Positions 33,771 through 50,342 of a stretch of DNA of 64,000 bases are shown here, piece by piece. Source of the DNA: Petrimonas sulfuriphila (GTDB taxonomy: Bacteria; Bacteroidota; Bacteroidia; Bacteroidales; Dysgonomonadaceae); NCBI GenBank assembly GCA_038561985.1, contig CP073276.1, positions 3,038,001 to 3,102,000 of the forward strand. The letters run 5' to 3'. A program made the position numbers and the translations under genes. The stretch's first letter is position 1, and each line of letters opens with the position of its first letter. Below the pieces are notes generated by a model. The model searched no databases. It saw nothing but the letters and a program-made list of their open reading frames with translations, and was not told where the DNA came from.

Positions 33771-34919
33771 GTGATTAAAGTATTGGTCCTAATAGATTAC
33801 TCAACTGAGTTCAGCCGCCGTTTCCTGGATGGGTTAATCCAATATGCTCAGGAAATGGGACAATGGAGTTTTTATCGCCTTCCTGTTTACTATAAAAACA
33901 TCCATGGAGAAGAAGGCGTAATAGCGTGGGCTCAAAAGTGGGAGGCCAATATTATTATAGCCCAATGGAATTACATGAGTTTGGAATCGCTTCAGAAGTT
34001 ACAGATACCGGTTTTTTTACAAAACTACAAAGAGGAAGGCAAATGTTTTTCAAATATTACAGGCGATTACACTGGGATGGGGGCGATGGCTGCGAAGTTT
34101 TTTATTCAAAGGCGTTATAATAATTTTGCTTTCTACGGAAATAAAGGATTTATCTGGTCAAGAGAAAGAGCCGAGGGTTATAGGCGTGAAATTGAAAAAA
34201 TTAAAGGAAATTATTATTACTTCGAGAGTGAAGATTTGAATGATAAGCAATGGGAGCACACGCACACCCAATTGGAAGATTGGCTGATTTCTCTGCCGAA
34301 GCCGGTTGCAATTTTCGCATGCGACGATAGTTTTGCCATACAGATATCGGAAATTTGTAAATTAAACAATATAAACATCCCTAAAGAAATTGCTCTTTTA
34401 GGAGTAGACAACGATAGATTAATTTGTAATTTATCCGATCCTCCAATCTCTTCCATTATACTGGACGCCGAAAAGGGAGGATATGAACTGGGCAGAAAGA
34501 TTCATGAGACGTTACAGGAGAATAATCCAAAGCCGTTCAGTATTTGTATTAACCCTTTAGGAATTGAATTGCGAAAATCTACAGAGAACTATAATGTTAA
34601 AGATAAATATATCCTGGAAATTGTGAAATACCTTCAAAAGAATTTTGATTCGGCAATAAAAATAGATAAATTAACTTCTTTAGTGCCTCTTTCCCGCAGG
34701 AGTATAGAAAGTAAGTTCAAAAATGAAATGGGAATTTCGCTCTACCAGTTTATTCTTAATTTAAGAATAGAACATTTTACTTTTTTGTTAACCACGACAA
34801 ATTTATCCATATCCGACATAATTTTTAAATCCGGATTTAATGATTATTCGAACGTTTTCAGGTTGTTTAGAAAAATAAAAGGCTGTACCCCGGTAGAATA
34901 CCGTAAAAGATTTATGTGA
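33771..34919 (+). CDS. XylR-type transcriptional regulator (LacI-like sensor plus AraC DNA-binding domain)
   Basis: A 382-residue regulator. The N-terminal two-thirds is a periplasmic-binding-protein-like sugar sensor (VLVLIDYSTEFSRRFLDGLIQYAQ, FACDDSFAIQISEICKLNNINIPKEIALLGVDND). The last about 100 residues hold two AraC helix-turn-helices (IDKLTSLVPLSRRSIESKFK; ISDIIFKSGFNDYSNVFRLFRKIKGCTPVEYRKRF). Translation starts at GTG, the codon matching the family N-terminus. It converges with the 35-50 kb gene cluster and is the obvious candidate to control it in response to a sugar, which is inference from position. Confidence 0.87.
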   Translation: MIKVLVLIDYSTEFSRRFLDGLIQYAQEMGQWSFYRLPVYYKNIHGEEGVIAWAQKWEANIIIAQWNYMSLESLQKLQIPVFLQNYKEEGKCFSNITGDYTGMGAMAAKFFIQRRYNNFAFYGNKGFIWSRERAEGYRREIEKIKGNYYYFESEDLNDKQWEHTHTQLEDWLISLPKPVAIFACDDSFAIQISEICKLNNINIPKEIALLGVDNDRLICNLSDPPISSIILDAEKGGYELGRKIHETLQENNPKPFSICINPLGIELRKSTENYNVKDKYILEIVKYLQKNFDSAIKIDKLTSLVPLSRRSIESKFKNEMGISLYQFILNLRIEHFTFLLTTTNLSISDIIFKSGFNDYSNVFRLFRKIKGCTPVEYRKRFM

Positions 34920-34983: not shown

Positions 34984-36192
34984 TCAGGCTTGTTTTGTCC
35001 GTATTTTACTTCCCCACAGTGCATAATACATAATAAATAGGTAAGCCGGTAATCCTATGGCATAAGCCATTTGATAAGAAAAGTGTTGTGCAAAATACCC
35101 AAAGATCAACGGAATAATGCCCGCACCCACAATCCCGGTTACCAATAACGCAGAACCCGATTTGGTGAACTTTCCTAAGTCGGCAATAGCTAAGGGCCAT
35201 ATAGCAGGCCACAACAAAGCGTTCGCGAGCCCCAATAAAGGTATTAAGTAGATAGAAATAGTAGAAGGCAATATAAGAATGGTTATGCTCACAATAATTC
35301 CTAATATGGTAGATGCAAGCAATGCCTGCGTCTGACTTATATATTTTGGGATAAAAATCATCCCTACCAAATATCCTACTATCATGGCAAACGAAACAAA
35401 CCACACATAGTTATGTGGGGAAGACAATCCCAATATATTGGCATAATCATTTATTGTTCCTAAAGCCAGATATTCCACTCCCACCGTAAAAAATATGGCC
35501 ACAACTCCTAAAAGCAAATGTGGAAACTGCCATACACTTGTTTTTGTAGAAGAATAAGAGTTCTGTATTTCTCCTGTTTCTGTTTCTTCTCCTATAGCTT
35601 TTACTTCAGGCAGAGGAGAAAAATAATAGATAATTCCCATTACAGACATTACGGCTGCAATGATATAAAACGGAGTAATAATGTCGGTTATCCTTACATT
35701 GCTCAAATCCATAAAAACAGCCAAAATAAAAGATGCGGCAGCATAAAATATTTTCGCACAAATCCCCATGAATGAAATTCTTGATGCTGCACTTTCAGGT
35801 GATCCTATAATGGAGACATAGGTGCTGTAAGCACCTGTCAGCAGTGCTTGTCCCAAACCATTGATGAAGAGGGCCAATAAAAACAAGGAAAAGTTTACCG
35901 TTTTAGCTGAAGGCACAATAATGAGAAAACCTACAGCCATCAGTATAAGTGCAATGACCATTCCGCCTTTATAACCTGCTTTTTTTAAAATATTGCCTGC
36001 TACGCCACCAAAGACCAGGTAAGCCGAAAATGTAGCCAGCATGATCAAGTATGACATTGCTGTGGTAACATGAAATGCCTGTTTTACAAAAGGAATAAAA
36101 AAAGCATTAACTCCCAGTGCAAAACCCAATATAGCATTCATCGAACCCACCAGGAGTAACGGTACAATGATGTTTTTTTTATCTACTTTCAT
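34984..36192 (-). CDS. MFS transporter, FucP-like sugar:proton symporter
   Basis: A 402-residue protein with about 12 membrane segments. N-terminal GSMNAILGFALGVNAFFIPFVKQAF and FINGLGQALLTGAYSTYVSIIG resemble the FucP/GlcP group of sugar:H+ symporters. It is the last gene of the nine-gene minus-strand cluster, 62 bp after the mutarotase-like gene. It is the only inner-membrane transporter in the cluster, so it probably imports the released monosaccharide or glycoside. Confidence 0.82.
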   Translation of the reverse strand: MKVDKKNIIVPLLLVGSMNAILGFALGVNAFFIPFVKQAFHVTTAMSYLIMLATFSAYLVFGGVAGNILKKAGYKGGMVIALILMAVGFLIIVPSAKTVNFSLFLLALFINGLGQALLTGAYSTYVSIIGSPESAASRISFMGICAKIFYAAASFILAVFMDLSNVRITDIITPFYIIAAVMSVMGIIYYFSPLPEVKAIGEETETGEIQNSYSSTKTSVWQFPHLLLGVVAIFFTVGVEYLALGTINDYANILGLSSPHNYVWFVSFAMIVGYLVGMIFIPKYISQTQALLASTILGIIVSITILILPSTISIYLIPLLGLANALLWPAIWPLAIADLGKFTKSGSALLVTGIVGAGIIPLIFGYFAQHFSYQMAYAIGLPAYLFIMYYALWGSKIRTKQA

Positions 36193-36254
36193 TCTTAATA
36201 TGTTATTAATTGAGCTTTTGTATGTTTATCGCTGTACATACGGAATCTAAATCA

Positions 36255-37199
36255 TTAATAATCTGTAACTATGTATTCTGTTAAAATATCGACACTCATT
36301 TCTATACCGGGTGTTAGTGTATCGGGACATCTACCGCAACCTTCTATCTCCATGAATCCGGAGGGGTCGCAATAAACACTCAATTTGACCCCTTTGGCTG
36401 AAGGAGTTTTATCGGGAGAAATATCCGCAATATCAATATATTGATGTTTCGATGCAACGTTCAACACGCTGCGCTTTACCCTGAACTTTTCACCGGGAAG
36501 GTATTCTATCCAATCTACTTTTTCACTTAACCCCAACTGAAACCTTTGATCCGTTTCTGTGTTGACAATCAGTCGGCCATCTTCAATAAAACGCTGCTGT
36601 TTACTGGAGTTGTACAAGTCCCAAACATTTTCTTCATCAGAAACAGGTATTACGACTCTGCCTCTTTCACCAGAATCGAACTGGCACAACGACCAGGGCG
36701 CTAACATAAATTCTCCGTTGTTGATCGTCTTTTTTCCCACGTATCGAATAAGTTCGGTAACGTTTTGTCTGAAAACATGCTGATCTGTTTCAATCTTTAC
36801 GTGTCTTTCAAATTCACACGGAAGGCCTGTTTGTTGGTTATTTATCAAATCAATTTCAGCCCTTAAGACCGTTTTGTCCTCTTCTGATAAAATAACTTCC
36901 CACACTGCTCCAGTAACAGATGGTGGAACCCGCCAGTTTCCTGTTGGATATTCATAACCTAACGTTGTCCCTTCGGGGGCGGGCCAAAGCGCGTCGCCCC
37001 CAGGGTTTTGATATGCATTTTTATTGGAACGTTTTTCAATGGCCGAGGGCTGAACCCTGTTTAAAACTTGTCCGTTTACAATCGTGAACAACCGTCCTTC
37101 CAGATCTAATGCGGCTATCACGCCATTTTCCATATTACCGGTAAGGTGCCAACGTCGATAAGACTTGTTCAGCAGTTCAGTTAACTCAATTCCGGTCAT
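36255..37199 (-). CDS. Mutarotase-like hypothetical protein (DUF6786/DUF4380-like)
   Basis: A 314-residue protein without signal peptide. AYQNPGGDALWPAPEGTTLGYEY and the following beta-rich sequence resemble aldose-1-epimerase-like beta-sandwich families (DUF6786/DUF4380). I cannot assign catalytic residues with certainty. It lies 2 bp after the creatininase-like gene. A role in converting the anomeric form of the imported sugar would fit the cluster, but that is inference. Confidence 0.6.
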   Translation of the reverse strand: MTGIELTELLNKSYRRWHLTGNMENGVIAALDLEGRLFTIVNGQVLNRVQPSAIEKRSNKNAYQNPGGDALWPAPEGTTLGYEYPTGNWRVPPSVTGAVWEVILSEEDKTVLRAEIDLINNQQTGLPCEFERHVKIETDQHVFRQNVTELIRYVGKKTINNGEFMLAPWSLCQFDSGERGRVVIPVSDEENVWDLYNSSKQQRFIEDGRLIVNTETDQRFQLGLSEKVDWIEYLPGEKFRVKRSVLNVASKHQYIDIADISPDKTPSAKGVKLSVYCDPSGFMEIEGCGRCPDTLTPGIEMSVDILTEYIVTDY

Positions 37200-37201
37200 T
37201 T

Positions 37202-37945
37202 TTATTTGCTTAATCTTTTCTTTAAATCTGTCAAGATAAAGGCCTTTGCCTTATTCGCATATTCCATGTTAGCCTTGGGTGCGTGTTGTGCATACCAATA
37301 TTTGTCGTCGAAACGCTTCATGTCGACTCCTTCGGGAGCAAAAGCCATCATAAGTGAGGTCTCTTGTTCACCGGCATGATCAATCGGCCACTGTGCCTGT
37401 GCCTCGGCACTCATAAAGGGTTCTACCCGAATCCAACTGAACGGGTCCGTTCCCGCATCATGTTCTGCGTAGTAATTGGCAGAGGCCTTGTCTTCTCCCC
37501 ACCAGCCATCCCCTTTTTCCCGGTCGAGAAAAGCAAAAATCTCCTGCTTGGCTGCCAATCTGAACGCCAAATCGTTTGGCATACCGCTTGCGAAGTTTTC
37601 ACTTTGGTGGTGATAAAACAGATTAATATTGCGGAAACCGATTCTCAACAGGTTGTAAAATAATTGCCGTGCAAAGGTGTTGAGTACGCCTGAATCAATG
37701 TGCATGCCTCCCTTGCGTTCAGGCCCGGATACGGCATAAGATCCTGCGCCGAACCAAAAAGGCGGTAAAATAATCACCTCCATTTCTTTCTCCAACATTT
37801 CCAACGCACCTTGTACAACTAATGTATCTACACCTGTGCAAAGATGTTCGGCATGATATTCTATAACACCTAACGCCATAACTACCGGAGTATTCTCATC
37901 AATAGACTTTCGGATTTGATCCGGAAACATATATTCGTAACGCAT
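37202..37945 (-). CDS. Creatininase family amidohydrolase
   Basis: A 247-residue cytoplasmic protein. The family metal site is visible: Glu and His in MALGVIEYHAEHLCTGVDT near residues 28-38 (with Asp), the His pair in LFYHHQSEN near residue 115, and Glu in DHAGEQETSLM near residue 195. GSYAVSGPERKGGMHI replaces the usual GxS..H segment. Members open cyclic amides (creatinine) or related C-N bonds in cofactor and sugar-derived substrates. It lies 12 bp downstream of a creatinase-like gene. Confidence 0.85.
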   Translation of the reverse strand: MRYEYMFPDQIRKSIDENTPVVMALGVIEYHAEHLCTGVDTLVVQGALEMLEKEMEVIILPPFWFGAGSYAVSGPERKGGMHIDSGVLNTFARQLFYNLLRIGFRNINLFYHHQSENFASGMPNDLAFRLAAKQEIFAFLDREKGDGWWGEDKASANYYAEHDAGTDPFSWIRVEPFMSAEAQAQWPIDHAGEQETSLMMAFAPEGVDMKRFDDKYWYAQHAPKANMEYANKAKAFILTDLKKRLSK

Positions 37946-37957
37946 ATTTTTTATTGT

Positions 37958-39118
37958 TTAAAGTTCAATGTATTTCATAAATTTAGAGGACATCATTTCT
38001 ACACCGCCATCTTTAACAATGACTCCGTTTTCCCACCTTAAGCCAAAATCTTTATCGTAGAAAAAAGTATCGATTTGAAAAGTCATATTTTTCTGCAATA
38101 GATATTCGGAAGTCGATTCCATCCAGGGGCGCTCTACTTCCATCATGCCGATAGCATGACACGGGCCGTAAAGAAGATATTGGCCAAAACCTTGATTCTT
38201 TACCCAATTCTCGTAGTCATTGACAACTTGTCCGGCAGGCTTTCCTGCAGCAATCATACCTATGGTTTTTTTGTGAGCTTCTAACCCAAATTCTATTAAA
38301 CGTCTTTTTCGCTCGGGCAACGGCCCGATGGAGAACGGCAAACCCACGCTGGATGAATAGCCACTGACTCTTGCGCCTATATTAAGTTGTATTACTTCAT
38401 TTTCTACGATTGTATTGTGTCCTGGTCTTGAGATAGCATTGTTGGTAGACTCTCCGCAAAAGCAGTAAAGGGAGTGTCCTTCATATTCTCCCCCGTGTTT
38501 ATATATCTCACGTTGGGCAATTCCAATGACCTGGAGTTCCGTCATACCCGGTTTTATCTCGTTCAATATAGCTTCCACAGCAAGTTCCGATATCTGGTAC
38601 GCCTTCCTCATGCATGCGAGTTCATTTTCACTTTTTACGAACCGAAGGGGCCAAAGGGTCATGTCTGCTTTTACGATTTCTACGTTAGGAAGCTGCTCTT
38701 TTAGGGAGGTATATACGGGTAGGGGAGTAATAGCCCATCCCACGATGCCTAATTTACGAATGTGTTGCAAATCGTATTTCTCCAACAAATCTTTGTATGT
38801 AATAAAAGACATCCCAGGCGCGTCCGGCTCAGCTGATTCGCGGTATTCTATCAACTTTTCAATATTTTTGAAAAAACTTCTCTGAGACGCGTATAAATCA
38901 CTTTCGGGGCCAACTAACAATATTGCTTCTCCCTGTGCCGGTACAAATACCGCAGCTGTTTCAAACACGGGCCAGTACTCACTCAAATACCTGACGAATG
39001 CCATGTCTGATTCTGTGGCATGTACTAAACAGGCGTCTAAGCCTTCTTTTTTGATGTTTGCCTGAAACTTCCTGATTCTTTCTTTAAATTCACTTGTTGG
39101 GATTGTTGTTGTGTTCAT
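37958..39118 (-). CDS. Creatinase-like M24 family protein lacking canonical metal ligands
   Basis: A 386-residue pita-bread protein with an N-terminal creatinase/prolidase domain and a C-terminal M24 domain from about residue 160. Metallopeptidases have two Asp ligands in a DxGaxxxGYxsD pattern; here the segment is QLNIGARVSGYSSSVG, with Asn and Ser at those places. His in GPCHAIGMME and Glu in LRWENGVIV remain. Metal-free creatinase shows the same loss, so a non-peptidase hydrolase acting on a C-N bond is more likely than an Xaa-Pro peptidase. It sits directly beside the creatininase-like gene. Confidence 0.8.
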   Translation of the reverse strand: MNTTTIPTSEFKERIRKFQANIKKEGLDACLVHATESDMAFVRYLSEYWPVFETAAVFVPAQGEAILLVGPESDLYASQRSFFKNIEKLIEYRESAEPDAPGMSFITYKDLLEKYDLQHIRKLGIVGWAITPLPVYTSLKEQLPNVEIVKADMTLWPLRFVKSENELACMRKAYQISELAVEAILNEIKPGMTELQVIGIAQREIYKHGGEYEGHSLYCFCGESTNNAISRPGHNTIVENEVIQLNIGARVSGYSSSVGLPFSIGPLPERKRRLIEFGLEAHKKTIGMIAAGKPAGQVVNDYENWVKNQGFGQYLLYGPCHAIGMMEVERPWMESTSEYLLQKNMTFQIDTFFYDKDFGLRWENGVIVKDGGVEMMSSKFMKYIEL

Positions 39119-39157
39119 AATACAGTTTTTTTTTCATTAATAATTTTGTTATAAAGT

Positions 39158-41533
39158 TTATCGAATGTTTTCTTTTCTGACTTTAGGCAACTGGTACAAT
39201 AAGGTGTCTTTCAAAACCAAAAGTTTCTCTTTTAATGAGTATGGGGTATAGACATAATCTTGCTCAAACTGAAAACCCATACGGGAATCTCTAGTTGTGG
39301 CCAATAAGGAGAGTTCAGTCCGTTCGATCTCGTCTTTTACAATATTTTCCATTCTATCAAGGATCTCCTGAATAGCTTCTTTTTCTTTTTCTTTTACTAG
39401 CTTCATCCGGAGATCTTCAAATTCAAGGATAGCGTAGTCGCTTTGCATCATTCGTTGTAGTTGTTCAGCCACAATTACTTCTCTTACCGCTTCTCTGCGT
39501 TTAGCCTCAGGACTGTTAATTGCGGCAGACCTGTATAAAGTCAATCCCCTTTCCATTTCATCAATGGCTTTTTTTAGATAATTAAGGAAAAGGGGCAGAA
39601 TCTTTGTTTCATTTGTAGCGACAATACCTGTTGCATTTCTGGCATATTGTTCTGCCCTATTTACCTGATTCGAAAAATCGGGGAAGAATACCATACGGGA
39701 AACGGTAAACGGCCAGTAAGGGTTGAGATCTGGATCATTCTTTGCCGGATCTGACCATGAATAGGTAAAAGTTGCTGTTCTTACTGGGGGTACCTGGAAA
39801 AATATAGGATTTCCAATAGCATTGTTAGTGCCCATATTAGGCCCGGTGTCGGGAACAAGACGGATAGCCCTGCTAAAATGTTCCCATGCTTTTAATACCT
39901 GTTCCTGCTGATTTTTTCCAAAAATTACCGTAGCCGTTTGATTCAAAAGTGTCTCAAAAGAAGGATAATCTGTCCAACAAGTCCATGCACGAAGCTTACT
40001 TAAAAAATTGGGTTTGTAACCGCTGCTCCAGCTCTCCAACGTTCCGTTCACACCTAGTCTTTCCAACGCCTTATAACGGTCATGCCATTGATAAGGACAG
40101 GGCAGATAAGGTATTGTTCCGTATTGCCAACTGGCAAAGGTGTCTACTTTAGAGAAGACCCTCATGTTACGATTTTTGGCTTCCTCTATTTGTGCTTCCG
40201 TCACTTCGGCCGGGCCAATTTGATTTAAGGAATAATCACGCAAATATCCCTGCATGCCGTCTACTTCAAAACTTTTTCCATTTTCCCAGGTGAGCATGGG
40301 GGTGGTGTTCTCAGGGAGTTGTTGAATGAAATAGCGCTTTATTTCCGTATTTTGGGGACGAAAATCGATATTGTATTCCCATGGAAGTATTTCTATGGCC
40401 GGGTTCATTTTATGACACTCTTCTTCGACTATTCCCACAGCATACGACCAGTTTTTAGCCCAATCCTGAAGGTACTCCTTACTTGCACCGTGGCCTCCCC
40501 CCCATTTTTTGTACCAGAATCCCTCCGTTAAGAGGATGTATCCGTTGATTTCAGGAAATTCCCGGACAATATCGCGTACCAGTCTACGCAATTCCGCTTC
40601 GCTTTCTTCGGTTCCCAAGTATTGGAAAATGATCTGCGTGTAAACTTTCAAGCCGTATTTGGAAGCTCGTTTAATCAGATCTCTTATTTTTGCAGGATCT
40701 TGTTTACGCACTCCGTACATCAGGCGTGCATAAAAATCGGTAGAATTATCGGCTGTTGTCCGGTCTCCATTCGGGTTGGTATATACACCGGCAAAAATAC
40801 CGTCAAAGCCGTCATGAACAAGATGGGACAAAAGTGCATCAGGCCATTCCATCCATCCCATCCACGATAGAACCATGCGCGTATGGTATAAACTGTGGCG
40901 AACTGTTTTTAAGTTGTTGGGTAAAAAAGGAGCTTCACGAAGATTCATTCTTGCTTCCAGGTTATAAAGGCCGAACATTGTTCCTTGTTCGTCATAACCA
41001 CACACAACAATACGACGAGGAGTTACCTGTATTTCGTAATCTTTGGGGTTTTTAAGGGTTAACCCGCATCCGGGAAGCTGCTCTCTCGTTCCTGCAACAA
41101 TACATTGACTTAATTTCTTCCAGTCATTCAAGGTGACCCTTTCTTCGAATTCTATTGCCACACCGTGTGAAATAACCATATAATCCTGAAAATCTTGAAC
41201 GGCGGTTAAGGTGACAATACCTGCCTGTTTCAAGTAAACCAGTTTCCACCCGTGATTGAGAATGGTCATCTCATCCTTTTCCGCTGAGGTGCTCTTGTCC
41301 CTTCTCCATACATGCACAGGAGCCGTTGAAAGATGTTTGTGGTAGTCATACGGTTCTTCCACAGCAAGGCGTTCAACCTCTGAAAGGAAAGGGGTTACGT
41401 TTCTGTTTTTTATGGTGTTTTCTGTGGAAATATCACTCTTTTCAGCAAAGCCCATAGTGGGTGAAACAGTCATTCCGACGAGGCCGGTAGTGCTTGTAAT
41501 TAAAAAATTTCTACGGGTAAAATTTTTTCTCAT
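39158..41533 (-). CDS. Tat-exported glycosidase-like protein (GH20/GH67-type architecture)
   Basis: A 791-residue protein beginning with a twin-arginine signal (TRRNFLITSTTGLVGMTVSP). Residues about 100-210 resemble the alpha/beta domain that precedes the TIM barrel in GH20 and GH67 enzymes (CGYDEQGTMFGLYNLEARM). A barrel-like region follows: DALLSHLVHDGFDGIFAGVYTN, KYGLKVYTQIIFQYLG, PEINGYILLTEGFWYKKWGG, with Glu residues that could be catalytic. The C-terminal 200 residues are helical and charged. I cannot name the family or substrate. Tat export suggests folding or cofactor binding before translocation. Confidence 0.65.
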   Translation of the reverse strand: MRKNFTRRNFLITSTTGLVGMTVSPTMGFAEKSDISTENTIKNRNVTPFLSEVERLAVEEPYDYHKHLSTAPVHVWRRDKSTSAEKDEMTILNHGWKLVYLKQAGIVTLTAVQDFQDYMVISHGVAIEFEERVTLNDWKKLSQCIVAGTREQLPGCGLTLKNPKDYEIQVTPRRIVVCGYDEQGTMFGLYNLEARMNLREAPFLPNNLKTVRHSLYHTRMVLSWMGWMEWPDALLSHLVHDGFDGIFAGVYTNPNGDRTTADNSTDFYARLMYGVRKQDPAKIRDLIKRASKYGLKVYTQIIFQYLGTEESEAELRRLVRDIVREFPEINGYILLTEGFWYKKWGGGHGASKEYLQDWAKNWSYAVGIVEEECHKMNPAIEILPWEYNIDFRPQNTEIKRYFIQQLPENTTPMLTWENGKSFEVDGMQGYLRDYSLNQIGPAEVTEAQIEEAKNRNMRVFSKVDTFASWQYGTIPYLPCPYQWHDRYKALERLGVNGTLESWSSGYKPNFLSKLRAWTCWTDYPSFETLLNQTATVIFGKNQQEQVLKAWEHFSRAIRLVPDTGPNMGTNNAIGNPIFFQVPPVRTATFTYSWSDPAKNDPDLNPYWPFTVSRMVFFPDFSNQVNRAEQYARNATGIVATNETKILPLFLNYLKKAIDEMERGLTLYRSAAINSPEAKRREAVREVIVAEQLQRMMQSDYAILEFEDLRMKLVKEKEKEAIQEILDRMENIVKDEIERTELSLLATTRDSRMGFQFEQDYVYTPYSLKEKLLVLKDTLLYQLPKVRKENIR

Positions 41534-41620
41534 TTTTTTGATTGTATTTACATATACGTATTCGAATACCTTTAAAGAGAGATCTGTTTATTACCAGAAG
41601 TGCATGTTTATTATAAAAAT

Positions 41621-42832
41621 ATTTGTTTATTCTTCGATAACCAGCAGAGAGTATCCTTTGCTTTTAGGTACGTTGATATGGACATAATCACCTTCAAGGG
41701 TATAAGACAGCTTCACCTTTTCGGGTGCCAGGTAGATGTTCTTGAAATTTCTATCATCGTGGCGAAGGGATAGGGTTATGTTGTCAAGTTCAATGGGTTC
41801 TTCGATCATTTGCGTATTTCCCCTCATCTCGGGCAGATAAGAAAGCAAATGCACCATTCTTCTTTTGGGTTGTTCCGTGACAAAAACCCGGGAGAATGAC
41901 GGTAAATTTTTTGTCTTTACTAACGGTTTGGCAAGAAACCGGTCGAGCACGTTGGAAAAGACTGTTCTTAACTCCACGGATGCCTTATCGTAATACCCGG
42001 AGAATATACGGTGGCTGAAATGGGCCACCTGCCCGTTAATTGTAAGCGCCGGCTTCTCCGTCACCTTGTCTGGCGGATTATAATAGAAAGCATATTCCCC
42101 ATCCCAATCCCGGTTATGATATGGTTTTACAAGACGTGCCTCCGTTCTTGTTTTACCGGACGCTTCCACTTCAATGCCGTTGGAGTATAAAGAGAGCGGC
42201 ATGTCCGGCAACCCTTCATTACAATTTTCCCCTACGGTAAAATAAGCCGGATCAAACGGATTTTCTCCTAAAAATTTGATGCCCCATTCCTGTTCGAGCA
42301 CAAAATGTCTCTTCTCCGGATCAAGGCCGGAGAACCCCGTTGAAATGACCGCCTTTCCTTCATTGACGTGTTTCTTCACGCGTCTTGCCGTTTCCTCGTC
42401 AAAGAGAATGTCGTCGGGAAAGATCAGCACCTTGTACTTGCTCCAGTCCGATGCCAGCGTCACCACATCGAACTGCTGCTTCAATTCGCTCAACATGCGC
42501 ACCGCGCTTTTGAGTTGTCTGTCGCCCCGTATGTTTGCAATTTTCTTTGGATAGACGATGGCTATTTCAGTTATGTTCTTGGCGTTGTCGAACCAGGGTT
42601 CCATGGTCTGGAGTTCCCTGTATATTCTTTCCACCCTGTCAAGGACGGCATTCTCGAGATCCCCCCTGGGGTGAAAATGGCCTCCGATATTGGGACGCAT
42701 CCCGTTGGCCAACCCGTAAAGCAACTCCGACTTGATGGCTTCCCCGGGACGTAATCCTCCAAAATCCCCCCAATCGTAAAACCGGCCCGTCATATTCAAA
42801 ACCGGATAGTCGCCCAGCGTCCTTAAATAGTG
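41621..42832. repeat. 1.2-kb near-identical direct repeat, copy 1
   Basis: Aligned to 48303-49514 at a constant offset of 6682 bp without gaps. By eye I find three differences, each changing a residue (K/R, K/R and P/L in A1/A2). It covers the C-terminal 400 codons of gene A1 and a few bases past its stop. Confidence 0.95.
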
Positions 42833-43642
42833 AGATAAAACCGGTAAGTATTCATATCCCCATGCGCCGGCAGGAAGGCATTCTACTTCAAAGTAAGTAC
42901 TGAATTTACTCTGTTCCTCGTAACCGGGATTGTTGTGGTATATTAATAAATTAGGATTTATTTTCGTTGCCGCTTTGTAAATATCTTCAGCTAATCTCAG
43001 CGCGGAGAATTCCGAAAATTTTGTTACTTCGTCCAGATTGTTCCAATCAATTCCCTTTTCTTTCATTTCCTTTACGCAAACAGGGCAGACGCAAGGGAAA
43101 TTCTGAAGGCAATCAATAAAGAAGCCGGACACCGGATAATTTCGTGCGATCTCTTCTACCATGGCAATTAAATGATCTCTGTAAGCGGTATTGTAGCACA
43201 TGGTTCGTACGTAAGGCGTAAAACGTGGCTCACGATATTCGCGGCCGTCAAAATACAGAGTCGTCCACTCTCTGTGTTTTAATCCCTCAGCACTACTTAT
43301 TCCCCCATTCAGATATGCCGTAAGAGCAATCCCTTTCCGATTGCATGCATCTGCAAGCTGCCCGAAAAGATCATATTTTAGAGAAGGGTGTTTTATGCCA
43401 ATCTTTGTATCGTAATAAGCCATTCCCAAATTACAGCGGGCGTGGAATGTCAGGTAATCTACTCCACAGGCTTTGATCCTATCAGTAAATGCCTCTACAT
43501 CAAAATTTTCTCCTACATCCGGGATAGCAGGCATAGTATGATTATCGTAAAACAGACAATACTTAGGCGTATGAATTTTGCCCTGCGGATAAACCAGAAA
43601 GGGTAGGACAAGGTAAATAACAAAAGGAATGATTTTCTTCAT
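41627..43642 (-). CDS. Glycosidase-like protein A1, secreted (GHL6-like barrel with beta-galactosidase-type trimerisation domain)
   Basis: A 671-residue protein with a signal peptide (MKKIIPFVIYLVLPFLVYPQG). The barrel starts KYCLFYDNHTMPAIPDVGENFDVEAF and contains VDYLTFHARCN, FIDCLQNFPCVCPVC (two CxxC-like pairs) and YDWGDFGGLRPGEAIKSELL; a glutamine-amidotransferase-like domain of the GH42 type follows (residues about 350-560). It resembles hypothetical glycosyl hydrolase GHL6 and alpha-L-fucosidase-like proteins; substrate unknown. The start at 43642 is chosen because it opens the signal peptide and clears the upstream gene by 4 bp. Bases 41621-42832 are nearly identical to gene A2 at 48303-49514. 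Confidence 0.7.
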   Translation of the reverse strand: MKKIIPFVIYLVLPFLVYPQGKIHTPKYCLFYDNHTMPAIPDVGENFDVEAFTDRIKACGVDYLTFHARCNLGMAYYDTKIGIKHPSLKYDLFGQLADACNRKGIALTAYLNGGISSAEGLKHREWTTLYFDGREYREPRFTPYVRTMCYNTAYRDHLIAMVEEIARNYPVSGFFIDCLQNFPCVCPVCVKEMKEKGIDWNNLDEVTKFSEFSALRLAEDIYKAATKINPNLLIYHNNPGYEEQSKFSTYFEVECLPAGAWGYEYLPVLSHYLRTLGDYPVLNMTGRFYDWGDFGGLRPGEAIKSELLYGLANGMRPNIGGHFHPRGDLENAVLDRVERIYRELQTMEPWFDNAKNITEIAIVYPKKIANIRGDRQLKSAVRMLSELKQQFDVVTLASDWSKYKVLIFPDDILFDEETARRVKKHVNEGKAVISTGFSGLDPEKRHFVLEQEWGIKFLGENPFDPAYFTVGENCNEGLPDMPLSLYSNGIEVEASGKTRTEARLVKPYHNRDWDGEYAFYYNPPDKVTEKPALTINGQVAHFSHRIFSGYYDKASVELRTVFSNVLDRFLAKPLVKTKNLPSFSRVFVTEQPKRRMVHLLSYLPEMRGNTQMIEEPIELDNITLSLRHDDRNFKNIYLAPEKVKLSYTLEGDYVHINVPKSKGYSLLVIEE

Positions 43643-43646
43643 TTTT

Positions 43647-45902
43647 TCAATCAATGATTTTAGCATTAGATAACACGGCTAGTATTTCTTCTTTGGTAAG
43701 TTTATTCGTTCGGATATACCGTCTGTCATTTAGGGGAATAAGAATATTACCGTTCGAGTCATTAACAGGCTCTTCCTCGTCCAATCTCTTGTATAAAGTA
43801 ATATCGGATGGTTTTAACTGTAGTTGAAGTTTTTTATTTCCGGATATGTGCCAATAAACAACGTAATAATCTCCCTTTCTCTGGAATATGAAAGCCCTGA
43901 TTTCTTTGCTGCCTCCTGCTACGCCAGAGATTTGTTCATAAGGCACCAATTCAAATTGATTTTGTTCATTCAGTAATAGATGATGCTCTTGTTCCATATC
44001 CTGAAGCATTGTTTTTTGTCCTTCGGTGAGCCAATCAATACTTCTTACCTCTTCCCATCTCCTATAAACTTCCAGGTTATCGGCTGTTCGGGCATGTTTT
44101 TTAAATCCCTCCAAATTTGAGTTTAATGAAACAGGACAATCCCAAGCAGCAGCTACGCTAGTTACAAATTCAATCATATCAGGCTGTGTCCCAATTGATT
44201 TTTCATTAGGAACAAAATAGCCCAGCCACCCGAAATTAACCCTTGAAAAATCGGCTTTCATCCGCCTTGCTTGTTGAGCTGGCCATCTTTTTATTTCTTC
44301 CTTCAGAACATCCGGCCTGAAAACATCAAACGCATTTCCTCCACTTAGCATGTGCCAGCTAAAATGTGACTTTGCCGCTCCTTCTGCATAAATGGGTGTA
44401 GGATCAAATCTCTTATAAACTCTCCACTGCGCATAAGGGACATTAAACCAAAATGGAGGGTTAACTCCTTCTGAACCGTCGAAGTAGCAAAACTCAAATC
44501 CGGCGTTATATATGTTTTCCAGTTTTTCCGCAATTTCATCTTGTAAGCTGGTTCTCTGATCAATATAAACACTTCTTTGGGTGCCGAACTCACTTACATC
44601 AAGCAATCCAAAAATGGTACCAACCGGTAATGAATTTATGGTTGTTTTGTCAACTCCTCTTGTACAACCGATAAACTTATACGGCCACGATGTCGTATAG
44701 CTCTCGTAGGAAACCAATTCGGTTCCTATTTTTAGCACGCGCATACCATCTGCTAATGTAGTACTGACTGGATTTTGTTCCACAAATATTTCTGTGTCGC
44801 TAGTTCCCAGTGGTTTTGCCAGCGTAAAATATTTAAGCAAATTCAATCGATGATCGGATATAGGCGTAACATACCTACTGTCTCTTCCTATATGTGAATG
44901 TAAAAAATGTAAACCGGGTGAGATGCCTTTACCCTTGATTTTTTTAAGTAAATTTTCCAAATCCTCCCTTTCATTTGGGTAAATTGATTTTCTCCAGTCA
45001 TAATCTCCCTTTTTACTCCATGATGGGCCACTTTCTACAATAGCGCTATATGGAATTTTCATACTGCGAAATCCTCCCATTTTTGCATATTTTATATGTT
45101 CATCTACGTTGTCGGGAGTGATATCCGAAGCGGCATAATAAGATGCATTGTATAGTTTGTGTCTGCGACTTTCAACGCCCTTTGGCAAATTAAAATCCTC
45201 CTCCACCCGGGCGATATTGTTTAGTAAATCGCCTGTTTTGCAGACTATCAAAGCGGCTCCAACCTCTAATAGCTGAATGTCCCTTTCAACTGCCGCCTTC
45301 ATTATGCGATACCCTTCACGCTTTTCTGAATTGATCCGCGCATGAATATTTGTTGCGAGTACGTTAATGGCTATTTTATTGTCCCAGCTTACATTGAGCC
45401 ATTCTCCGAAGTGTTCTCGGTCGCGCACAGGCAATTGAATAAAATTCATTTCATAAACGGGAGGTAAAATCCCTTTATTTACACCAATGCCATAATCATT
45501 GCCTTCTATAAAAAAATCCTTTACCGTGAAGTTTATATAATTGGGTGTTATATCTAATTTTATACGTGCCTTATAGAAAATCAGTTCAAAATCAACAATC
45601 AGTTCGTTCCCTTCTTTTTTAACGGATTTAGCATTGAATGATATTTTGTTTGTTGGATAAGCCAGTTTTATTTCATTGTGGAATGGCCTTTCCTGAGTGA
45701 CAGAGAAAACAGGCATGTTTAATTGCTGCGAAAGACATTCTTCATTGGTTGGTTTATACAGTAGACTTTTGGCAATTCCATCTTCCCCGATAACAAATCT
45801 CATTTGATCGTTTTCAATGACGATATCCCTGTTATCATTTGTTCTTGCATCTATGTTTAATGCAACACTGGCTATGATAAGTAAGACAATAGAAAATCTC
45901 AT
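43647..45902 (-). CDS. Glycosidase-like protein B1, secreted
   Basis: A 751-residue protein with a signal peptide (MRFSIVLLIIASVALNIDA). The first 240 residues look like a beta-sandwich (IVIENDQMRFVIGEDGIAKSL, FGEWLNVSWDNKIAINVLAT). A TIM-barrel-like region follows: PDNVDEHIKYAKMGGFRSMKIPY, PGLHFLHSHIGRDSRYVTP, DEIAEKLENIYNAGFEFCYFDGSEG (an acidic pair well placed for catalysis), HFSWHMLSGG and INSLPVGT. A small C-terminal beta domain ends it. I do not recognise the family. It is a tandem paralogue of B2 (46024-48285), about 121 bp away. Confidence 0.65.
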   Translation of the reverse strand: MRFSIVLLIIASVALNIDARTNDNRDIVIENDQMRFVIGEDGIAKSLLYKPTNEECLSQQLNMPVFSVTQERPFHNEIKLAYPTNKISFNAKSVKKEGNELIVDFELIFYKARIKLDITPNYINFTVKDFFIEGNDYGIGVNKGILPPVYEMNFIQLPVRDREHFGEWLNVSWDNKIAINVLATNIHARINSEKREGYRIMKAAVERDIQLLEVGAALIVCKTGDLLNNIARVEEDFNLPKGVESRRHKLYNASYYAASDITPDNVDEHIKYAKMGGFRSMKIPYSAIVESGPSWSKKGDYDWRKSIYPNEREDLENLLKKIKGKGISPGLHFLHSHIGRDSRYVTPISDHRLNLLKYFTLAKPLGTSDTEIFVEQNPVSTTLADGMRVLKIGTELVSYESYTTSWPYKFIGCTRGVDKTTINSLPVGTIFGLLDVSEFGTQRSVYIDQRTSLQDEIAEKLENIYNAGFEFCYFDGSEGVNPPFWFNVPYAQWRVYKRFDPTPIYAEGAAKSHFSWHMLSGGNAFDVFRPDVLKEEIKRWPAQQARRMKADFSRVNFGWLGYFVPNEKSIGTQPDMIEFVTSVAAAWDCPVSLNSNLEGFKKHARTADNLEVYRRWEEVRSIDWLTEGQKTMLQDMEQEHHLLLNEQNQFELVPYEQISGVAGGSKEIRAFIFQRKGDYYVVYWHISGNKKLQLQLKPSDITLYKRLDEEEPVNDSNGNILIPLNDRRYIRTNKLTKEEILAVLSNAKIID
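43834..43995. repeat. 162-bp high-identity patch shared by genes B1 and B2, copy 1
   Basis: Matches 46214-46375 at constant offset 2380. I count five differences in 162 bp, whereas flanking sequence is clearly more divergent. It encodes the segment EQEHHLLLNEQNQFELVPYE onward near the C-terminus. Confidence 0.85.
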
Positions 45903-46023
45903 GTTTGACGTTTGTTTTATTATTCTTATTTAAGAAATTGAATAATTACTAAAGATGTATTTGTTGAGGGGTTAATTCTTTTTGTTTAAACCACTCTAGA
46001 AATCTAACTTTACGACAGGTTTT

Positions 46024-48285
46024 TTAATTGAGAATTTTAGCCTTGACAAAACAATCTATTAATTGTTCTTTTGTTACTCCATTCACTTTCAGGTATCTAC
46101 GGCTGTCGGCCGGGATTATTGTCTGGTTTTCTTGACTGGGGATTAAGTTAATTTCCTGTCCCAGGTTCTCGTATAGTTTTACATTATTATTGTCTATTGG
46201 TAATTCCAGTTTCTTATTTCCGGATATGTGCCAATAAACAACGTAATACTCTCCCTTTCTCTGGAATATGAAAGCCCTGATTTCTTTGCTGCCTCCTGCT
46301 ACACCGGAGATTTGCTCATAAGGCACCAACTCAAATTGATTTTGTTCATTCAGTAATAGATGATGCTCTTGTTCCGTATTTTTCAGCTCATTTTTCTGCT
46401 CTTCAGTGAGCCAATGCTTCGCTCTGACCTCCTCCCATCTTCGCACTACTTCCAGGTTGTCCGGAGTTCTTGGATGAGCTTCAAATGCTTCAAGATTAGA
46501 ATGAATGGAAATCGGGCAATCCCAGGCCGCTGCCACACTGGTAACGTATTCCAACATATCCGGTTGTGTTCCTACGGTTGTCTCACTTGGAACCCAATAA
46601 CCCAACCACCCGAAGTTGATTCGTGTAAAATCCTGTCTCATCCGGGGAGCTTCTTCTGCTGGCCATTTTTTTGTTTCTTCCTTCAATACTTCCGGCCTGA
46701 AAACATCAAAAGCATTTCCTCCACTCAACATATGCCAGCTAAAATGTGTTTTAGCAGCCCCTTCTGCAAATAAAGGCTGGGGTTTTAACCGTTTAAATAC
46801 CCTGTACTGCGCTAAAGCAACGTTGATACCGAATGGAGGATCCACCCCCTCTGAACCGTCAAAATAGAAAAATTGAAATCCGGCATCATAAATTGCCGCA
46901 ATTTTTTCAGCAATTTCATCTTGTAAGCTGGTTTTCTGGTTTATATAAACACTGGTAGCGCCGAATTCACTGACATCCAGTATACCAATGGAGTATCCCT
47001 TGGGAAGGCTGTTCACCGTAGTGTTATCGATCGCCCTTTTGCATCCCGTAAATTTATAAGGTGGTACAGTAGTAAAATTCTCATATGAAATAAGTTCCGT
47101 TCCTACCTTCAAAACCCGGCATCCCTCCGCCATGACGGATCCTTCGGGGTTTTGTTCTACATACACAGTCGTATCGTCCCTTCCCAGGTTTTCCGACAGA
47201 TTAAATGTTTTTACGAGATTTAGCCGGTAATCGGGAACGGGAGTTACGTACTGGCTCTTTCTGCCGATATGTGAATGAAGAAAATGAACACCCGGAATGA
47301 TACCTTCCGCTTTAATCTTATCCAACATTTTCTGAAGATCTTCTTTTCCATTGGGATATAACGTCTTGTCAATTTCATAACTTCCAATGATACCGTATCC
47401 TCCTCCTCCTTCAAAACTGGGGTAATAGATATTCATCAACCTGAAACCACCCATCTTGGCGTATTTGATGTGTTGATCGACATTCGTTGGATTTATGTTT
47501 GCCGTCCAATAGTATGAAGCATTGATAAAATCATTTCTACGGCTTTCTACGCCTTTGGGCAGATTAAAGTCATTCTCTATCTGAGCAATATTATCCAGCA
47601 ATTTATCGGATTCAGAAACAATTAATGCAGCCCCGGTGCCTTTAAATTTTATATCCTTAATGGCACTTGCCTTCAATATTTTATACCCGTTTCGTTTCTC
47701 AAAATCGATATAGGCGTATTCATCTGTGGCTAACACATTAATAGCAGCCTTATTATCCCAACTGACATTTAGCCATTCTCCAAAATTCTCCCGGTTACGG
47801 ATGGGTAATTGTAAAATACATACTTCAGTAGCGGGAGGAGGAGTTATTTTAAGGTACGAGGGATAAACGCCGTCCGTAATAAAATCGTAAAGGCTGAAAC
47901 CTATATAATCAGGTGTTTCCTTGACTTGAATAACCGCTTTGTACGGAATTAATTCAAATCCAACAATGAGTTTGTCTCCCTCCCGATAAATAGTATCGGC
48001 CTGGTATGTCGTTTTCTTATTGGGGTGACCCAATTTTATTTCATTGTGGTACGGCCTTTCCTGAGTCACTGAGATAATTGCCATATTTTCTCCCTGCATC
48101 AAACACTCCTCGCCGGTAGACTTCAGTTTCAAACTCTTAGCAGCGGCATTATTACCGATAACTAATTTAAATTGTTCATTTTCGATTACAACGTCATTTT
48201 CGAGGTTGCCACTTTCATTTTTTTGCACACATGACATTAAAATGATGTTAATCAATACAAATAATGGAATAATAATTTTTTTCAT
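46024..48285 (-). CDS. Glycosidase-like protein B2, lipoprotein
   Basis: A 753-residue paralogue of B1 with the same layout: beta-sandwich, barrel-like region (NPTNVDQHIKYAKMGGFRLMNIYYP, PGVHFLHSHIGRKSQYVTP, GFQFFYFDGSEGVDPPFG) and C-terminal beta domain. Unlike B1 it has a lipoprotein signal (FVLINIILMSC, Cys at residue 19), so it is membrane-anchored. An unusual insertion relative to B1 is the Gly-rich FEGGGGYGIIGSYE near residue 285. It follows gene A2 by 23 bp. Function unknown beyond glycosidase-like features. Confidence 0.65.
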   Translation of the reverse strand: MKKIIIPLFVLINIILMSCVQKNESGNLENDVVIENEQFKLVIGNNAAAKSLKLKSTGEECLMQGENMAIISVTQERPYHNEIKLGHPNKKTTYQADTIYREGDKLIVGFELIPYKAVIQVKETPDYIGFSLYDFITDGVYPSYLKITPPPATEVCILQLPIRNRENFGEWLNVSWDNKAAINVLATDEYAYIDFEKRNGYKILKASAIKDIKFKGTGAALIVSESDKLLDNIAQIENDFNLPKGVESRRNDFINASYYWTANINPTNVDQHIKYAKMGGFRLMNIYYPSFEGGGGYGIIGSYEIDKTLYPNGKEDLQKMLDKIKAEGIIPGVHFLHSHIGRKSQYVTPVPDYRLNLVKTFNLSENLGRDDTTVYVEQNPEGSVMAEGCRVLKVGTELISYENFTTVPPYKFTGCKRAIDNTTVNSLPKGYSIGILDVSEFGATSVYINQKTSLQDEIAEKIAAIYDAGFQFFYFDGSEGVDPPFGINVALAQYRVFKRLKPQPLFAEGAAKTHFSWHMLSGGNAFDVFRPEVLKEETKKWPAEEAPRMRQDFTRINFGWLGYWVPSETTVGTQPDMLEYVTSVAAAWDCPISIHSNLEAFEAHPRTPDNLEVVRRWEEVRAKHWLTEEQKNELKNTEQEHHLLLNEQNQFELVPYEQISGVAGGSKEIRAFIFQRKGEYYVVYWHISGNKKLELPIDNNNVKLYENLGQEINLIPSQENQTIIPADSRRYLKVNGVTKEQLIDCFVKAKILN
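46214..46375. repeat. 162-bp high-identity patch shared by genes B1 and B2, copy 2
   Basis: Partner of 43834-43995. The high identity stops abruptly on both sides, as expected of a conversion tract. Confidence 0.85.
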
Positions 48286-48302
48286 AACTGCATATGTTTG
48301 TT

Positions 48303-49514
48303 ATTTGTTTATTCTTCGATAACCAGCAGAGAGTATCCTTTGCTTTTAGGTACGTTGATATGGACATAATCACCTTCAAGGGTATAAGACAGCCTCACCT
48401 TTTCGGGTGCCAGGTAGATGTTCTTGAAATTTCTATCATCGTGGCGAAGGGATAGGGTTATGTTGTCAAGTTCAATGGGTTCTTCGATCATTTGCGTATT
48501 TCCCCTCATCTCGGGCAGATAAGAAAGCAAATGCACCATTCTTCTTTTGGGTTGTTCCGTGACAAAAACCCGGGAGAATGACGGTAAATTTTTTGTCTTT
48601 ACTAACGGTTTGGCAAGAAACCGGTCGAGCACGTTGGAAAAGACTGTTCTTAACTCCACGGATGCCTTATCGTAATACCCGGAGAATATACGGTGGCTGA
48701 AATGGGCCACCTGCCCGTTAATTGTAAGCGCCGGCTTCTCCGTCACCCTGTCTGGCGGATTATAATAGAAAGCATATTCCCCATCCCAATCCCGGTTATG
48801 ATATGGTTTTACAAGACGTGCCTCCGTTCTTGTTTTACCGGACGCTTCCACTTCAATGCCGTTGGAGTATAAAGAGAGCGGCATGTCCGGCAACCCTTCA
48901 TTACAATTTTCCCCTACGGTAAAATAAGCCGGATCAAACGGATTTTCTCCTAAAAATTTGATGCCCCATTCCTGTTCGAGCACAAAATGTCTCTTCTCCG
49001 GATCAAGGCCGGAGAACCCCGTTGAAATGACCGCCTTTCCTTCATTGACGTGTTTCTTCACGCGTCTTGCCGTTTCCTCGTCAAAGAGAATGTCGTCGGG
49101 AAAGATCAGCACCTTGTACTTGCTCCAGTCCGATGCCAGCGTCACCACATCGAACTGCTGCTTCAATTCGCTCAACATGCGCACCGCGCTTTTGAGTTGT
49201 CTGTCGCCCCGTATGTTTGCAATTTTCTTTGGATAGACGATGGCTATTTCAGTTATGTTCTTGGCGTTGTCGAACCAGAGTTCCATGGTCTGGAGTTCCC
49301 TGTATATTCTTTCCACCCTGTCAAGGACGGCATTCTCGAGATCCCCCCTGGGGTGAAAATGGCCTCCGATATTGGGACGCATCCCGTTGGCCAACCCGTA
49401 AAGCAACTCCGACTTGATGGCTTCCCCGGGACGTAATCCTCCAAAATCCCCCCAATCGTAAAACCGGCCCGTCATATTCAAAACCGGATAGTCGCCCAGC
49501 GTCCTTAAATAGTG
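48303..49514. repeat. 1.2-kb near-identical direct repeat, copy 2
   Basis: Partner of 41621-42832. On the N-terminal side identity ends sharply at TCCTTAAATAGTG (49502-49514), after which A1 and A2 diverge. Confidence 0.95.
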
Positions 49515-50261
49515 GGCCATCACAGGCATAAACTCGTATCCGCTATCTGATGCCGGTAAAGACACCACATCGAAATAGGTATTTATTCCCAATAACTCTT
49601 CGTAACTCGGATAATTATTGGAAATAAGTAAATCGGGGTTTATTTTCATCGCTTCCTCCGCAATATCTTTTGCTAAACGTACTGCTGAAATTTCCGCAAA
49701 ACGAGTGACCGCGCTTAAATCCGACCAATCCATATTTCTTTTCTTCATCTCTTGTACACAGACAGGACATACACAGGGATAATTGATTAAGCAATCAATC
49801 ATCAGCCCCCCAACGGGATATTGGTAAAGTACCTCTTTTACCATTTCAATCAGATGATCCCTATATCCCGAGTTGTAACACATGGTACGGACATGCGGCG
49901 TAAAACGTGGCTCACGCAACGACCTGCCATCGAAATACAAGGTTGTCCACTCCCGATGCTGCAATCCTTCCTCACTACTAATACCCGCATTAAAGTATGC
50001 TCCCAATGCAATCCCTTTTCGTTGACAAGCTTCTGACAATTTGCCGAAAAGATCGTATTTTAAGGAAGGGTGTCTTGTCCCAATTCGGGTATTGTAATAT
50101 GCAAGCCCTTGATTACAACGAGCATGAAACACGAGATAATCAACTCCACAAGCTTTGATCCTGTCAGTAAACACCTCTACATTGAAGTTTTCTCCCACAT
50201 CGGGAATAGCCTTCATCGTATGATTATCATAGAATAAACAGTATTTAGGTTTATGTTTCAT
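48309..50261 (-). CDS. Glycosidase-like protein A2, no signal peptide (paralogue of A1)
   Basis: A 650-residue paralogue of A1. The first about 250 residues differ from A1 at many positions, while the last about 400 are the same except three residues. It begins MKHKPKYCLFYDNHTMKAIPD, straight into the barrel. The upstream frame meets a TAG within a few codons, so there is no hidden signal peptide and the protein should be cytoplasmic. It is the first gene of the minus-strand cluster. It has the same CVCPVC pair (LINYPCVCPVCVQEM). Confidence 0.7.
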   Translation of the reverse strand: MKHKPKYCLFYDNHTMKAIPDVGENFNVEVFTDRIKACGVDYLVFHARCNQGLAYYNTRIGTRHPSLKYDLFGKLSEACQRKGIALGAYFNAGISSEEGLQHREWTTLYFDGRSLREPRFTPHVRTMCYNSGYRDHLIEMVKEVLYQYPVGGLMIDCLINYPCVCPVCVQEMKKRNMDWSDLSAVTRFAEISAVRLAKDIAEEAMKINPDLLISNNYPSYEELLGINTYFDVVSLPASDSGYEFMPVMAHYLRTLGDYPVLNMTGRFYDWGDFGGLRPGEAIKSELLYGLANGMRPNIGGHFHPRGDLENAVLDRVERIYRELQTMELWFDNAKNITEIAIVYPKKIANIRGDRQLKSAVRMLSELKQQFDVVTLASDWSKYKVLIFPDDILFDEETARRVKKHVNEGKAVISTGFSGLDPEKRHFVLEQEWGIKFLGENPFDPAYFTVGENCNEGLPDMPLSLYSNGIEVEASGKTRTEARLVKPYHNRDWDGEYAFYYNPPDRVTEKPALTINGQVAHFSHRIFSGYYDKASVELRTVFSNVLDRFLAKPLVKTKNLPSFSRVFVTEQPKRRMVHLLSYLPEMRGNTQMIEEPIELDNITLSLRHDDRNFKNIYLAPEKVRLSYTLEGDYVHINVPKSKGYSLLVIEE

Positions 50262-50334
50262 GCTATAAATCTAATGTGTTCAGTTATATAAGTTTTTCAA
50301 TCGTCCCTTTTAACGTTACGGATAAATTCATGAA

Positions 50335-50342
50335 CAAACATA
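50335..50342 (-). promoter_or_regulatory. Putative -7 element of the nine-gene minus-strand cluster
   Basis: On the minus strand this reads TATGTTTG, matching TAnnTTTG, about 75 bp upstream of the A2 ATG. No convincing TAnnTTTG is found in the gaps at 45903-46023, 41534-41626 or 36193-36254, which favours one long transcript. No clear -33 box is seen, so an activator is plausible. Confidence 0.45.

Follow-up and report, generated by a model that had tools for sequence, protein, structure and literature searches.

We analyzed a 64,000-nucleotide stretch (hereafter, the window) of the single-contig, 3.83-Mb genome of Petrimonas sulfuriphila, in which an earlier note had described a catabolic locus of nine minus-strand genes with mostly short gaps (positions 34984-50261). 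Open reading frames (ORFs) and Pfam and NCBIfam profile families bear out this layout. The genes are transcribed in the order g9 to g1 (Table 1): five large glycosidase-like proteins (g9 to g5) are followed by an M24-family creatinase-like protein (g4), a creatininase-family protein (g3), a DUF6786 protein (g2), which we take to be mutarotase-like, and a major facilitator superfamily (MFS) transporter (g1). Intergenic gaps, in plus-strand order, are 62, 2, 12, 39, 93, -20, 121 and 23 bp. Promoter and terminator scans gave counts near the shuffled expectation (45 versus 38.3 and 18 versus 14.0, respectively), so we claim no transcript borders.

The unusual part of the locus is the cassette made of the M24, creatininase, DUF6786 and MFS genes; to our knowledge, an M24/creatininase cassette is no usual part of a polysaccharide utilisation locus (PUL). 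As a module, the M24/creatininase pair is genuine, conserved and so far without an explanation. Among the other cassette members, g2 has no NCBIfam match, and g1 scores under the cut-offs of the NCBIfam models NagP (242 bits, cut-off 625), gluP (195.4, cut-off 202.55) and fucP (105.7, cut-off 280.4).

Table 1. Genes and other features of the locus and its flanks, in window positions
Feature	Position	Strand	Size (amino acids)	Description
ROK gene	32573..33535	+		ROK glucokinase-like protein, flanking; 246.8 bits (cut-off 260.35)
Regulator	33771..34919	+		LacI-type sensor and AraC-type DNA-binding domain (XylR-type architecture)
g1	34984..36192	-	402	MFS transporter, NagP/GluP/FucP (FHS-type) group; MFS_1 67 bits
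g2	36255..37199	-	314	DUF6786, 40.8 bits (cut-off 27); N-terminus without a signal peptide as judged by eye
g3	37202..37945	-	247	Creatininase PF02633, 93.6 bits (cut-off 31.3)
g4	37958..39118	-	386	Peptidase_M24 and Creatinase_N; creatinase-type M24
g5	39158..41533	-	791	TIM-barrel protein, GH84/GH67/GH20-like; twin-arginine N-terminus by eye
g6	41627..43666	-	679	GHL6 (Pfam), GH151-like; signal-like N-terminus
g7	43647..45902	-	751	Paralogue of g8, 60% identical; no Pfam match
g8	46024..48285	-	753	N-terminus lipoprotein-like by eye; predicted alpha-glycosidase fold resembling clan GH-D
g9	48309..50261	-	650	GHL6 (Pfam), GH151-like; no signal peptide
53-bp stretch	50290..50342			7.8 kb at the corresponding place in same-species genome G481

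The M24/creatininase pair and its distribution

The g3 protein meets the superfamily model PF02633, stays below the cut-off of the NCBIfam creatininase model TIGR04448 (71.5 bits, cut-off 235) and matches the sequence of a creatininase structure (E = 1.2e-10). It keeps the EYH, HHQxE, GWWG and DHAG motifs, which are conserved in its relatives. A profile search matches g4 to creatinase (1chm, E = 3.3e-9); against the NCBIfam ectoine hydrolase model TIGR02993 it reaches 63.3 bits (cut-off 613), and its M24 homologues are mostly Xaa-Pro peptidases. M24 metallopeptidases hold a dinuclear metal center with the ligands D, D, H, E and E. Placed by the presumed metal-ligand positions of prolidase, three of the five canonical positions are changed in g4 (N246, S257 and D350 for D, D and E), while H321 and E363 are kept. 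The same changes are present in all nine cross-phylum M24 sequences compared, the first position being occupied by Asn, Cys or Gln. We rejected a canonical M24 peptidase for g4 on these metal positions.

Relative to the sister species L039, amino-acid/synonymous codon differences are 0/39 for g3, 6/52 for g4, 37/91 for g5 and 75/173 for g8. Judged by these counts, the pair is under strong purifying selection and forms the most conserved part of the locus. The same two protein families stand side by side in creatinine degradation (1q3k, 1chm); however, g3 and g4 lie far below the family cut-offs, g4 is closer to prolidases, and their neighbors are sugar genes. Ectoine hydrolase (DoeA/EutD) is likewise a creatinase-fold M24 relative without canonical metal ligands, but DoeA is 21-22% identical to g4 and does not keep the equivalents of H321 and E363. 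The reaction of ectoine hydrolase is a ring opening, according to PMC5924519. A search of plasmids with g3 returned two distant records only. A 25%-identical M24 gene lies in a galactarate dehydratase/TRAP transporter cluster on a Leisingera thetidis plasmid (L106/L109).

One scan of species genomes yielded 48 g8 loci, whose neighbors were counted by tblastn. Relatives of g3 are found in 10 of these loci, g4 in 10 and both in 9; g4 stands without g3 only in L040, at a contig end, and g3 without g4 only in L079. The 10 g3 loci carry an MFS gene in 9 cases (cut in L037), DUF6786 in 7, and GH151 or GH29 (GH, glycoside hydrolase) in 8, GH29 having a Pfam match in L050, L052 and L079 and being inferred in L053. 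The comparisons support the earlier note in that the locus behaves as a conserved unit to which the creatininase- and creatinase-like genes belong. In two g8/g5 loci lacking the cassette (L057 and L069), relatives (53% identity) of a NodB-type deacetylase and RhaT are present instead. A further family of about 300 amino acids lies beside g8 or M24 genes (L040 7018-7926, L043 9017-9910, L149 6049-6984 and L187 1-582); its L043 and L149 copies have no Pfam match.

A whole-genome search covered 32 of the 48 loci, in 31 genomes; the remainder were 8 of the loci with g3, L038 and seven loci that were partial or small. It detected g4 (E<=1e-60) in 10 of the 31 genomes, g3 (E<=1e-30) in 11 and both in 7; for two of the 11 g3-positive genomes (G909 and G912), the g8 locus itself was known to include g3. 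By comparison, the window's own genome was the sole match both among 393 sampled genomes of the order (E<=1e-20) and among 395 sampled from the phylum (E<=1e-15). The corresponding Fisher p values, 5e-14 overall and 5e-5 for Bacteroidota alone (3/16 versus 0/392), are rough, since the compared genome groups differ in taxonomy. Within the family, g4 is present in 7 of 101 genomes.

The pair is also adjacent in three Clostridia genomes (G892, G893 and G909, titled Firmicutes or Oscillospiraceae), one of which, G893, has GH151 and MFS genes beside it. A Kiritimatiellae genome (G891) shows the order M24, NodB-type deacetylase, GH151, creatininase, MFS, DUF6786-like, MFS, GH129-like. A search for M24 (E<=1e-80) in a sample of 288 genomes of G891's class, with no selection by g8, gave 21 sites in 15 genomes, or 19 sites without G891. 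Of these 19, four have a creatininase nearby (L169, L174, L176 and L177), three a NodB-type deacetylase (L171-L173), one a NagB-type gene alone (L170) and five an Amidohydro_2 gene (L181 and L184-L187), accompanied by RhaT in the last four. NagB is above the NCBIfam cut-off in L171 and has a Pfam match in both L170 and L171. The pair is followed in L176 and L177 by DUF4432, presumably another mutarotase-like family. A triad of M24, Amidohydro_2 and a RhaT-like symporter recurs in this class (L149, L184, L185, L186 and L187).

The glycosidase-like proteins

All five large proteins had been described as unclassified glycosidase-like proteins; this needs correcting for g6 and g9, which belong with the described fucosidase family GH151, and g5, g7 and g8 have no Pfam family. 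Residues 10-649 of g9 align to residues 36-686 of the GH151 alpha-L-fucosidase ALfuk2 of Paenibacillus thiaminolyticus (6TVK; E = 1.2e-80), and g6, which likewise matches GH151 along its length, belongs to a 76-100% similar group in the GH151 comparison. PMC10154630, a review, gives D154 as the ALfuk2 nucleophile, E235 as the acid/base and His503, contributed by the neighboring monomer; by our own count, an offset of 29 between the numbering of that paper and the 6TVK chain fits all three residues. Both proteins keep the nucleophile Asp (g9 D156, g6 D185). The acid/base Glu is kept in g6 (E262); in g9 it is replaced by V233, and the same place holds Val or Ile in all 5 other g9-type sequences compared (L037, L038, L039, L040 and L043). 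Both proteins further differ from ALfuk2 by a Phe at the place of His503 (Phe498 in g9). By eye, a signal-like N-terminal stretch is seen in g6-type proteins and none in g9-type proteins. We thus consider g6 and g9 to be GH151-like fucosidase relatives, their activity being predicted from sequence, so that the locus points to fucose-type sugars. Starting at codon 271 of g9, 3 of 1143 bases separate g6 from g9, whereas the two genes are far less alike before this point; the near-identical 3' part looks like the product of gene conversion.

No Pfam match was obtained for g7 and g8 in the window or for 32 scanned g8 members, and no sequence-level match for g8 among Protein Data Bank sequences. 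The structure model of g8 has a predicted local distance difference test (pLDDT) score of 87, and Foldseek matches it to structures from GH36, GH101 and GH31 (best E = 7.8e-16), at 8-12% identity and with TM-scores of only 0.2-0.5 over whole chains. The model thus suggests that g8 and g7 fold like the alpha-glycosidases of clan GH-D (GH36, GH31) and GH101. It differs from these by an extra, mostly beta-stranded segment (residues ~357-436), apparently inserted in the barrel domain. Four residues, D476, E479, D527 and D576, are invariant in the g8 family. A relationship of g8 to a GH129-like or DUF6259 neighbor was rejected, as profile comparison gave no match. No Pfam family exceeds its cut-off in g5, whose model is weak (pLDDT 62); in Foldseek, GH84 has the best E-value but GH67 the higher TM-score, and a profile comparison matches a GH20-domain protein weakly (probability 64%). 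The g5 model weakly suggests a GH84/GH67-like fold. As judged from Pfam, g8 and g5 may each represent a glycosidase family for which Pfam has no model.

SusC/SusD and the flanking genes

The earlier note had called the locus SusCD-less and therefore not an ordinary Bacteroidetes PUL. There is indeed no SusC or SusD gene at the locus in the window genome, but this characterization is not supported, since the same species and relatives carry the pair at this place. In G481, the counterpart of the window's 53-bp stretch spans 7.8 kb between g9 and a metallophosphatase gene and contains ORFs of 943, 543 and 1025 amino acids, comprising SusC, SusD and a 943-amino-acid gene. Their counterparts in L037 (Petrimonas sp. 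IBARAKI, treated as one genome with G481) match the Pfam SusD and TonB-plug/carboxypeptidase-like (SusC) models, and the 943-amino-acid ORF of L037 matches no Pfam model. Identity between the window and G481 is 99.2% up to position 50289 and 96.8% from 50343 on. Sister species L039 has no SusC/SusD there and retains a 211-amino-acid remnant of the 943-amino-acid gene (88% identity). Across the 48 g8 loci, SusC relatives are found in 7 and SusD relatives in 9. The absence of SusC/SusD is therefore a strain-level difference and not a defining property of the locus, an idea that we rejected: the locus resembles a Bacteroidota PUL in the same-species and related genomes, and departs from it in the window strain. 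The most economical interpretation is that the window lineage lost these genes, a gain in G481 being formally possible.

On the other side of the locus, profile matches bear out the adjoining XylR-type regulator and ROK kinase. The regulator occupies the corresponding position in L039, L099 and L100 and, from its position, is probably the local regulator of the locus. The ROK gene is flanked by a tryptophanase/tyrosine phenol-lyase-type gene (30865-32313, 584 bits), and the flank order with both of these genes is kept in L023, L099 and L100. The stretch 6857-8785 of L030, about 6 kb beyond the window end, has a second, unrelated creatininase-family gene (188 bits), with an MFS gene ahead of it and a LuxR-type regulator ahead of both.

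Proposed function and alternatives

We put at about even odds a reading in which the locus is a fucoside-directed PUL whose cytoplasmic g4/g3 pair acts on a modified 6-deoxy sugar, the window strain having lost SusC/SusD. Exported g8 and g7 (GH-D-like), g6 (GH151-like) and g5 (GH84/GH20/GH67-like) would trim a fucose-containing and probably N-acetylhexosamine-containing glycan. The FHS-type transporter g1 would bring in a small fucose-type sugar, on which g2 (mutarotase-like) would act in the cytoplasm together with the g4/g3 pair, g4 being metal-degenerate and creatinase-like and g3 metal-type and creatininase-like; g9, a GH151 homologue devoid of the acid/base residue, would work alongside them. 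Gene content, conservation, co-occurrence, residue changes and the SusCD indel form the computed basis of this reading; from it we infer protein localization, fucose as the core sugar and the successive action of g4 and then g3. A 6-deoxyhexose substrate is suggested by the fucosidases, the FHS-type transporter and the RhaT relatives found elsewhere. Genes of the fucose isomerase family, present in 10 of 11 cassette genomes, allow fucose use, short of proving it.

Several observations weigh against such a fucoside-directed role. The missing acid/base Glu of g9 and the Phe of g6 and g9 in place of His503 depart from the ALfuk2 active site; g3 is missing from the vicinity of g8 in 38 of the 48 loci; no fucosidase was seen in two g3 loci (L073 and L077); and 6 of the 19 unselected M24 sites, several of them on short contigs, have none of the sugar-linked neighbors searched for. 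The fucose isomerase family is also common, and its presence in 10 of 11 cassette genomes means that plain fucose needs no new enzyme.

What bond the pair would act on is a separate matter. The earlier note had proposed a sugar carrying a C-N linkage. By analogy with creatininase, creatinase and ectoine hydrolase chemistry, and in keeping with the NagB and deacetylase neighbors, g4 and g3 may hydrolyze C-N bonds (amide or amidine) in a 6-deoxy sugar with an N substituent, the option that we favor, though at less than even odds. The creatinase-like metal loss and the NagB/deacetylase neighbors in another phylum favor that earlier proposal, and the sugar-oxidation neighbors and the C-C or other chemistry known in the same families speak against it. 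The latter observations fit an oxidative 6-deoxyhexose route, in which g3 and g4 would open or cleave a lactone, keto-sugar or diketo-acid derived from a fucose- or rhamnose-type sugar, with no C-N bond involved. IolN, a creatininase-family member in NCBIfam, is a 3-dehydro-scyllo-inosose hydrolase, and its model is matched weakly by g3 (46.7 bits, cut-off 245) and by the relative of g3 in Clostridia (71.9 bits). M24 has zinc alcohol dehydrogenases as neighbors in L139 and L174 and Gfo/Idh/MocA proteins near several of its copies; the 25%-identical M24 gene lies in a garD/TRAP galactarate cluster, and Amidohydro_2, a family that includes sugar lactonases, stands beside M24 with RhaT in five sites, L149 included. 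However, no dehydrogenase is found among the nine genes of the window, the NagB and deacetylase neighbors in other loci suggest amino sugars, and the metal-degenerate relatives creatinase and ectoine hydrolase act on C-N bonds. We regard an oxidative route as less likely than not, but as a serious rival.

The pair might instead process glycopeptide remnants (amino acid-sugar) of mucin-type or N-linked glycans, g4 being peptidase-like or a glycosyl-amino-acid amidase. The prevalence of Xaa-Pro peptidases among M24 homologues, the resemblance of GH-D-like g8 to GH101 and GH36 galactosaminidase structures and the GH129-like gene adjoining the cassette in L136 would agree with this, but the M24 peptidase metal positions are lost and the transporter is a sugar-type MFS rather than a peptide transporter, which makes such a role quite improbable. 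That g3 and g4 are accidental passengers, as the many g8 loci devoid of g3 might suggest, is strongly disfavored by the cross-phylum pairing: the order is kept in several genera, the pair is adjacent in other phyla and purifying selection on it is strong. We give this very little credence.

Returning to the fucoside-directed locus, a more specific and bolder version of it can be formulated, which we consider unlikely. Metal-degenerate M24 and creatininase-like proteins may form an undescribed two-step pathway, present in several phyla, that frees imported 6-deoxy amino sugars of an N substituent (amidine or amide); g9, the cytoplasmic GH151 homologue lacking an acid/base residue, may cleave a fucosyl bond whose leaving group is a good one; and g7/g8 and g5 may represent unnamed glycosidase families. 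Cleavage with a good leaving group and without an acid/base is the case of GH1 myrosinase. A search of the open PMC literature, with CAZy and subscription journals outside its scope, retrieved no relevant paper on such a gene combination.

Genes that automatic annotation labels 'peptidase' and 'creatininase' recur together in glycan loci across several phyla. Should g3 and g4 prove to be sugar enzymes, such labels are misleading, and current maps lack a step in the catabolism of fucose-type or amino sugars. The conserved pair, together with its transporter and fucosidases, provides a concrete and testable basis for a substrate search.

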